Assembly (NCBI RefSeq): GCF_021295335.1
Contig: NZ_JAIWOT010000001.1
Coordinates: 2,327,001 to 2,391,000, forward strand
Reading direction: 5' to 3'
DNA from: Komagataeibacter sp. FNDCF1
GTDB lineage: Bacteria > Pseudomonadota > Alphaproteobacteria > Acetobacterales > Acetobacteraceae
DNA: 64,000 bases
Translations under genes and position numbers: made by a program
Notes under the pieces: model-generated
The model's input: only the letters and a program-made list of their open reading frames with translations
What the model was told of the DNA's origin: nothing
Database searches by the model: none
In this document: one piece after another, positions 13,219 through 15,290 of the stretch
Numbering within the stretch: position 1 is the stretch's first letter
Layout: every line of letters starts with the position of its first letter

Positions 13219-13407
13219 ATGCGGCTCATTCTCGCCCTGCTTCTGCCCTGGCTGCAGTTCTTTACCATTGGCCGCCCCATTTCGGGTATCATCTGTCTTG
13301 TGCTGCAGATTACCGTCATTGGCTGGATTCCGGCCACGATCTGGTCCGTCTATGCGCTGAGCCAGTACAGGACCGATCGCAAGATTGCAGCCCTGAAACG
13401 TTCCTGA
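13219..13407 (+). CDS. YqaE/Pmp3-like small membrane protein
   Basis: 62 residues with two hydrophobic helices (LILALLLPWLQFFTIG and ISGIICLVLQITVIGWIPATIWSVYAL) and a basic tail. Layout and the GW.PA..W..YAL segment match the Pmp3/YqaE group of stress-associated small membrane proteins. Perfect AAGGAGG upstream of the ATG. The next gene starts eight bases after its stop, so the two form an operon with glutaredoxin 2. Confidence 0.75.
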   Translation: MRLILALLLPWLQFFTIGRPISGIICLVLQITVIGWIPATIWSVYALSQYRTDRKIAALKRS

Positions 13408-13414
13408 GGCCTGA

Positions 13415-14059
13415 ATGAAGCTCTATACTTACGATCATTGCCCCTTCTGCGTGAAGGCGCGCATGATTTTCGGACTCAGGCACCTGCCGGTGACCGATAT
13501 CGTGCTGCTCAATGATGACGTGGAAACCCCGACCCGCATGATCGGGCGCAAGCTGTTGCCCATTCTGGAGCAGGACGGGCATTTCATGGGTGAAAGCATG
13601 GATATTGTCGCCCATGTCGATGCAATGGACGGCAGGCCCGTCCTGACCGGGCCAACACGCCCCGAAATCAGCCAGTGGATGCGCGATGGGCAGCAGGCGT
13701 GGGTTCATCTCGTGCTGCCACGTTTCGCGGCGGCGCCGCTGCCGGAATTCGCCACCACGGCCGCGCGGCTGTACTTCATCCGCAACAAGGAGGACATGAT
13801 CGGTCCCTTCAGCGACAGTCTTGCCGACAGCGCAGCCCTGCGCGCCAGCGCCAGTGCAGGGCTTGCCCGGCTGGCTGGCCTGATACAGCGGCCCGATGCG
13901 GTCAATGGCACCCTGTCCAGTGATGACATCCATCTGTTCGCATACCTGCGTAGCCTGACAATCGTGGCCGGGCTGGACTGGCCCGCACCGGTATGGGCTT
14001 ACTGCCGCCATATGGCGCGGACAACCGGCATTCCCCTGCTGGATCACATGTCAGCCTGA
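13415..14059 (+). CDS. grxB: Glutaredoxin 2
   Basis: 214 residues: an N-terminal thioredoxin fold with the redox motif CPFC (MKLYTYDHCPFCVKARMIFG) and cis-Pro region KLLPILE, then an all-helical GST-like C-terminal domain, as in Escherichia coli GrxB. Uses glutathione to reduce disulfides or deglutathionylate proteins in the cytosol. Eight-base gap after the YqaE-like gene. No regulatory site seen. Confidence 0.92.
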   Translation: MKLYTYDHCPFCVKARMIFGLRHLPVTDIVLLNDDVETPTRMIGRKLLPILEQDGHFMGESMDIVAHVDAMDGRPVLTGPTRPEISQWMRDGQQAWVHLVLPRFAAAPLPEFATTAARLYFIRNKEDMIGPFSDSLADSAALRASASAGLARLAGLIQRPDAVNGTLSSDDIHLFAYLRSLTIVAGLDWPAPVWAYCRHMARTTGIPLLDHMSA

Positions 14060-14159
14060 TACCAGACCCGCAGCCAATGCCGGAAGTGGGGTGGAAACTG
14101 TCGGGCCGCCCTGGCCGTTCCCTTGCCGACAGTTCATGCAGCAGGCAGGGAGGCAGCCC

Positions 14160-14366
14160 ATGTCACCATCACATGAAATCGCACGTTCTTCTGTGCACCG
14201 GCGCCCTTTTTCGCCGTTCGAGTCATGGGTACGGACCTCCCTGCATGACCGCTTCGAGATGGTGAGCAATGAAAACCTGCCGCCAGAAATCCTGCTCCAG
14301 TTTGACGGAACACATGACGTACCCGGCACCACCGTACCTGCCGCCGCCTGCACGAACAGGCGATAA
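14160..14366 (+). CDS. nepR: NepR-like anti-sigma factor
   Basis: 68 residues, cytosolic. The helix region WVRTSLHDRFEMVSNENLPP followed by EILLQF matches the NepR pattern L..(Y/F)(Y/F)(D/E).V.NE..P....L, which binds the EcfG sigma factor and is titrated by phosphorylated PhyR in the alphaproteobacterial general stress response. N- and C-terminal tails are disordered, as usual. ATG 14160 has a strong AGGGAGG six bases upstream. Unlike the usual layout, no phyR or ecfG gene lies next to it in this window. Assignment rests on my reading of a short motif. Confidence 0.62.
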   Translation: MSPSHEIARSSVHRRPFSPFESWVRTSLHDRFEMVSNENLPPEILLQFDGTHDVPGTTVPAAACTNRR

Positions 14367-14654: not shown

Positions 14655-15290
14655 TCAGCCTGACAGGCTGAGCGTTACGGTCTCGCATTCATCCGCCTGC
14701 CATTCCCGTCGCAGGACAGGTTTGTGCACGCCGGGGGGCTGGACCATCTTGCTGATATGCCACGGGTTGCCATCCATCCTGATCGCAACCCAGCCATGGG
14801 GCAGTTCATATTCGGGTACCAGGCCCACCAGGGTGATGTCCGTCATGGGGTCGTACTGGGCAAACTGTAGCGCGCACCCCTGAAAGACAAGCTGAACGGG
14901 AGCATGGCCCTGCCGGGCGCGGACCAGATTGACCAGCAGGATGCCGGTCGTATTCTCCGCCGCACCGAAGATCAGGCTGCCGCCATGATCATGCACGTCA
15001 ATCGGCAGCATGGTGACCGTGTCCACAGGAGACGGATGGATGACGAGCGTACCGCCATCAAGACTGAAAAGCCCCTGATTCCACGCATGTAGTTCATGCA
15101 GGCGCAGGCTCAGCCACGCCCCGGCGCGCACCAGCAGGGGCTGCAGATGGGGGGGATGGTACAGGAAACCGGACCTGCGGTACCGGGTAATGGCCTGTTT
15201 GACCATGGCCACGTCAAAATGACCGGTGGTCAGGGATAATCGTCCTTCCTCGTATGAAATAGCGGATGCATAATCCTCTTGCCTGTCCAT
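14655..15290 (-). CDS. Hypothetical protein
   Basis: 211 residues, soluble, rich in beta-strand-like segments (GTLVIHPSPVDTVTMLPIDV, TGILLVNLVRA), no signal peptide or known motif. It ends ECETVTLSLSG. Start ATG 15290 has GGAGGG nine bases upstream. Its own promoter region (15291-15570) is strikingly AT-rich compared with the rest of the window, a pattern seen with silenced or acquired genes. No function is proposed. Confidence 0.65.
   Translation of the reverse strand: MDRQEDYASAISYEEGRLSLTTGHFDVAMVKQAITRYRRSGFLYHPPHLQPLLVRAGAWLSLRLHELHAWNQGLFSLDGGTLVIHPSPVDTVTMLPIDVHDHGGSLIFGAAENTTGILLVNLVRARQGHAPVQLVFQGCALQFAQYDPMTDITLVGLVPEYELPHGWVAIRMDGNPWHISKMVQPPGVHKPVLRREWQADECETVTLSLSG

Follow-up and report, generated by a model that had tools for sequence, protein, structure and literature searches.

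A predicted divergent accessory NepR conserved across Komagataeibacter, with a putative ECF/EcfG-type promoter of its own

Described Accessory NepR Proteins

Accessory NepR proteins are already known, and two of them have been studied. META2p0735 of Methylobacterium extorquens is a negative regulator that is driven by an EcfG-dependent promoter and binds PhyR; no binding to EcfG was detected (PMC4814048). NepR2 of Sphingomonas melonis is an EcfG-dependent, PhyR-binding negative regulator as well (PMC6599016), and a role as a PhyR sink has been proposed for both proteins (PMC4814048, PMC6599016). In S. melonis, residues L32/Y36 of NepR and L31/F35 of NepR2 are needed for activity (PMC6599016).

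What we add is a genus-wide member of this group, NepR2 of Komagataeibacter, that public profiles miss. In open-access full texts, we found no work on the Komagataeibacter PhyR-NepR-EcfG pathway or on NepR in Acetobacteraceae; a single paper, on a honey-bee symbiont, mentions EcfG, Acetobacteraceae, and the general stress response (GSR) once each.

As in S. melonis Fr1, the protein is a second NepR in which the L and F positions are conserved, and the EcfG control seen there has its counterpart here in an ECF-type promoter. The S. melonis Fr1 gene, however, has a number adjoining that of ecfG (#1448 and #1447), whereas Komagataeibacter nepR2 stands behind grxB, roughly 1 Mb away from the core locus. 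Of this pair, PhyR binding has been shown for S. melonis NepR2 only. MexAM1_META2p0735 is likewise a NepR paralogue with an EcfG-type promoter (ECF-type here), but it belongs to a different family and sits on the META2 replicon, and it is likened to Komagataeibacter NepR2 by description, not by sequence.

The nepR2 Gene and Its Surroundings

The window, that is, the whole stretch of 64,000 nucleotides analyzed from Komagataeibacter sp. FNDCF1 (host genome 3.74 Mb), contains the following features:

13219-13407, plus strand: pmp3, Pmp3/YqaE-like membrane proteolipid (PF01679)
13415-14059, plus strand: grxB, glutaredoxin 2 (NF007702, 260.8 bits), directly upstream of nepR2 throughout the genus
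14093-14119, plus strand: predicted ECF/EcfG-type promoter, with -35 GGAAAC (14093-14098), N17, and -10 CGTT (14116-14119); the form G[A/C]AAC-N17-CGTT is in 19 of 19 orthologues
14147-14153, plus strand: Shine-Dalgarno sequence AGGGAGG of nepR2, with a purine-rich stretch in the same place in orthologues
14160-14366, plus strand: nepR2, predicted accessory NepR-like anti-sigma protein of 68 aa, in 19 of 19 genus genomes, under purifying selection and matching the core-NepR profile
14214-14267, plus strand: predicted helix alpha-1, NepR2 residues 19-36, PFESWVRTSLHDRFEMVS (AlphaFold2)
14283-14315, plus strand: predicted helix alpha-2, NepR2 residues 42-52 (AlphaFold2, block mean pLDDT 82 and 69)

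The nepR2 reading frame starts with an ATG at 14160, ends with a stop codon at 14364-14366, and encodes a product of 68 aa, MSPSHEIARSSVHRRPFSPFESWVRTSLHDRFEMVSNENLPPEILLQFDGTHDVPGTTVPAAACTNRR. An orthologue is present in all 19 Komagataeibacter genomes searched, in a constant gene order consisting of a Rieske protein (minus), pmp3 (plus), grxB (plus), nepR2 (plus), a 211-aa protein (minus), and a photolyase (minus), where some of the fetched stretches end before the 211-aa gene or the photolyase. For a 33-codon core, each pairwise comparison gave a pN well under pS (e.g., 0.04 versus 0.20 and 0.12 versus 0.63). From orthology, gene order, and codon substitution together, it follows that nepR2 is a real gene under selection. 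The 211-aa protein (14655-15290, minus strand) is convergent with nepR2 and has no Pfam match, and its position is kept in those Komagataeibacter loci that extend far enough. In K. nataicola, pmp3 is unmatched.

The first-pass annotation had named glutaredoxin 2 and a YqaE-like protein as neighbors, and both identities hold (NF007702 and PF01679), with both genes upstream of nepR2, but its use of their stress-type character as a hint to function does not. The linkage is positional only, since nepR2 has a promoter of its own, the region upstream of pmp3 holds no conserved promoter across the genus loci, and other genera carry grxB without nepR2 (in nearby genera, no NepR-like ORF was found within the 1.5 kb fetched around grxB). 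The stress character of grxB and pmp3 should thus not count as functional evidence for nepR2. A single EcfG-driven unit of pmp3, grxB, and nepR2 was also considered and was dropped on the latter two observations.

Homology and Predicted Fold

Neither the Pfam model PF18557 nor the NCBIfam NepR model NF051865 matches NepR2 at E<=10. The core NepR of the same genome itself scores only 25.5 bits with PF18557 (cut-off 25.7) and 25.2 bits with NF051865 (cut-off 100), so that the failure of these public models to find NepR2 says little; reaching their threshold is a matter of detection, not of biochemistry. We built a lineage-specific profile solely from core NepRs of Acetobacteraceae genera other than Komagataeibacter (35 sequences) and searched it against 12,456 six-frame ORFs from the loci covered. 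This profile detects NepR2 in 19 of 19 genomes, with E values from 1.7e-8 (best) to 2.6e-4 (8.5e-5 for the member in the window). It also brings up the core NepRs, NepR-like proteins from plasmids, and a third NepR-like protein encoded on the chromosome; ORFs of any other kind are not listed at E<=1 among the 12,456.

Further comparisons agree. A profile-profile alignment (hhalign) of NepR2 with core NepR gives a probability of 97.7% over 40 columns, and in the reciprocal search the NepR2 profile finds the core NepR of the same genome (30.6 bits, E=1e-6), to which NepR2 is 42% identical over 26 aa (E=4e-7). In a PDB sequence search, the best match of the NepR2 profile alone is Caulobacter NepR 3t0y at E=0.68, a value that becomes 2.4e-4 once core NepRs are added to the profile. 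Given that a profile made from core proteins only recovers all 19 members, and given the profile-profile probability, NepR2 is, as judged by homology, a divergent accessory NepR. The ORF with a NepR helix pattern described in the first-pass annotation is hence borne out under a NepR-profile search, albeit below the standard profile thresholds and with a significant score only for the lineage-specific profile.

In the AlphaFold2 model, NepR2 is a small protein of two helices joined by an NENLP linker and flanked by disordered ends, as in NepR anti-sigma factors. The model is most reliable in helix alpha-1 (mean pLDDT of 94 over residues 21-30 and of 82 over residues 31-40), and residues 53-68 fall below 50.

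Conserved and Diverged Positions

NepR2 has a two-helix pattern in common with the core NepR of Komagataeibacter (C1:3367198-3367380) and PF18557, namely F-x-x-W...L-H-x-x-F-x-x-V-x-x-E-x-x-P-x-E-hydrophobic-L. Residues L28 and F32 show no variation across the 19 genomes and match the L32/Y36 and L31/F35 positions of the two S. melonis proteins. Differences from core NepR are found, within a 30-column block, at the residue before F32 (R in 19 of 19 NepR2 versus L, M, or I in core NepRs), at the P of the E-P motif (N, K, S, or D in NepR2), and at an L of alpha-2 (Q, H, or E in NepR2), and the tail of NepR2 is longer and non-conserved. The R before F also occurs in NepR3 (the third chromosomal NepR-like protein) and in the plasmid NepR-like protein of the same genome. 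As these changes affect positions that are nearly constant in core NepR, the partner preference of NepR2 may be altered. In a tree of a 38-column block, NepR2 forms one clade (95/96), whose relation to other accessory NepRs is unsure because of long branches.

The Promoter Upstream of nepR2

The first-pass annotation made no mention of a conserved promoter at this gene. Directly upstream of nepR2, G[A/C]AAC-N17-CGTT is present in 19 of 19 genomes with a spacing of exactly 17, and the chance of such a motif per 150-bp region is 0.0023 (mononucleotide shuffle). It lies 40 nt before the ATG in the window and 36-68 nt before it across the 19 genomes. Save for the A/C position, GG[A/C]AACTGT...CCGTT is invariant (19 of 19), whereas much of the spacer and the flanks is variable.

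In the GSR regulon of Sphingopyxis, the commonest -35 elements are GGAAC and GCAAC, and the consensus -10 is CGTT (PMC7083833). The -35 element of nepR2 reads GAAAC in 13 genomes (including that of the window), GCAAC in 6, and GGAAC in none. The putative promoter is thus near the EcfG consensus GGAAC/GCAAC-N16-17-CGTT but not an exact match to it.

GGAAC-N16-17-CGTT has 45 sites in this genome versus 29 for the reversed pattern, and some of the 30 sites examined precede KGG-repeat, CsbD, and DJ-1/PfpI genes, which makes it likely that the canonical motif is used here. The strict extended motif of nepR2, on the other hand, is not enriched (3 sites versus 5 in the reversed control) and was dropped as a regulon marker; an ECF sigma factor other than EcfG could, for that reason, serve the nepR2 promoter. 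The GGAAC form was not seen in the aligned core-locus regions.

The Core Locus and Other NepR-Like Genes

The core GSR locus (C1:3365000-3369000) comprises phyR, two ECF sigma genes, the core nepR, and a HisKA_2/HWE kinase gene. PhyR is recognized by NF006623 (281 bits, cut-off 240), and the best NCBIfam model of the kinase is PhyK, under the model cut-off. The two sigma genes (164 and 196 aa; L032:5892-7055) lie in tandem beside a single nepR, and both products have their best models in the same PRK125xx set, below cut-offs. From the locus context, the 196-aa sigma factor is presumed to be EcfG. That phyR and ecfG are missing from the surroundings of nepR2, as the first-pass annotation had stated, is correct, and both turn up at this distant locus, so that their absence from the genome cannot be held against a NepR assignment. 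Its term "orphan" stands in the positional sense only, as the core locus is present elsewhere; as a sole copy it fails, nepR2 being one of four NepR-like genes in the genome.

In the gap between ecfG and nepR (L032:7056-7204), two stretches are conserved in the genus, AATTCCCACTTT close to the stop codon of ecfG and AAGTGGGAATTT immediately ahead of nepR, and the predicted fold pairs them with each other. These paired elements might control translation of nepR; the folding z-score of the whole region is only -1.18.

Of the 19 genomes, only that of the window (G000) has NepR3 (about 55 aa, MSDDPDFQEGRDMFGRWLKRGLHDRF...; L033:7074-7238, minus strand; G000:C1 about 723100), whose gene lies downstream of a 110-aa ORF that has no Pfam match. 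The plasmid NepR-like protein (L142:8297-8629, i.e., G000:C2:26296-26628; L143; L167:6001-6225, NZ_CP023038.1) scores 43 bits with the core-NepR profile, and its gene, annotated as hypothetical or not at all, lies between a MobF/TrwC relaxase gene and a MucR-type regulator in this genome and in K. saccharivorans. PLSDB has matches to it in 8 Komagataeibacter records and 1 Novacetimonas record, plus a short partial match in Gluconacetobacter diazotrophicus; 9 of these 10 records are typed conjugative, and the protein might dampen the stress response of the recipient. NepR2 itself was not found on plasmids. A further NepR-like ORF, DPFGTWVKTSLSQQFADVTAEPIPDELL (L021:1405-1866, minus strand; G014:C41), adjoins a serine-resolvase-like gene in another Komagataeibacter genome.

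Proposed Role and Alternatives

We infer from sequence that NepR2 would tune the general stress response, and this inference is strengthened by the conserved ECF/EcfG-type promoter directly upstream. Our favored reading, held with moderate confidence, is that NepR2 serves as a stress-induced negative-feedback brake binding PhyR and/or EcfG, since it has a conserved, putatively stress-type promoter of its own, like the brake known in other alphaproteobacteria. Freed EcfG (the most likely ECF sigma factor, to judge by the promoter) would transcribe nepR2; the two-helix core of NepR2, given its homology and the invariant L28/F32, would bind PhyR at its sigma-like domain, and perhaps EcfG as well; and an active GSR would, following precedent, yield more NepR-type inhibitor, by which the response is damped or switched off. 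The core partners (PhyR, two ECF sigma factors, NepR, and the HisKA_2/HWE kinase) are available in the same genome, and META2p0735 and S. melonis NepR2 offer precedents of EcfG-dependent, PhyR-binding negative regulators. Against the feedback brake speak the -35 element (GAAAC in 13 genomes or GCAAC in 6, not GGAAC), the unenriched strict motif with no GGAAC form in the aligned core-locus regions, and the changes in the EP motif and before F32, through which the predicted binding may be altered or lost. The partner of NepR2 may be PhyR, EcfG, or the second sigma factor.

As a sub-case of the feedback brake, NepR2 could have lost sigma binding and act as a PhyR sink only (an anti-anti-anti-sigma factor), which we regard as a tentative possibility. 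The alpha-2 and EP-motif changes where core NepR is constant fit such a sink, as does the finding that both studied accessory NepRs bind PhyR with no EcfG binding found; that published non-binding is itself tentative, however, and a sequence by itself does not reveal which partners a protein binds.

It is improbable, in our view, that the 164-aa ECF sigma factor has NepR2 as its dedicated anti-sigma factor, in two parallel sigma/anti-sigma pairs: two tandem sigma genes next to a single nepR, and the divergence of NepR2 at conserved positions, would suit that arrangement, but nepR2 is unlinked to the 164-aa sigma gene. We find it just as hard to credit that nepR2 is under a non-GSR ECF sigma factor and its product no longer touches the GSR. 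This would account for the non-canonical -35 box and for an extended AACTGT conservation not seen at canonical GGAAC sites, yet L28 and F32 are invariant, the CGTT element and the spacing agree with the EcfG consensus, and those NepR proteins whose partner is known act in the GSR. That nepR2 is a chance ORF or a decaying pseudogene, for which its shortness and the lack of a Pfam or NCBIfam match could be cited, is scarcely credible in view of in-frame conservation and synteny in 19 of 19 genomes, a core pN much below pS, and a conserved promoter and ribosome-binding site.

Perspective

A wider and rather doubtful idea is that the Komagataeibacter NepR family is split by role, with core NepR in charge of the EcfG switch, and with NepR2 and the other accessory copies (among them the one on conjugative plasmids) bearing changed contact residues and gating a second sigma factor or PhyR only. 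If true, this would be an expanded partner switch that conjugative plasmids also feed into.

Industry uses Komagataeibacter to make cellulose and vinegar, and the genus withstands acid and ethanol. For this genus, the outcome is a defined core GSR locus, an overlooked second NepR, and a promoter suited to a simple test of the feedback loop. For the family, the finding suggests that counts of NepR paralogues made with public models are too low.
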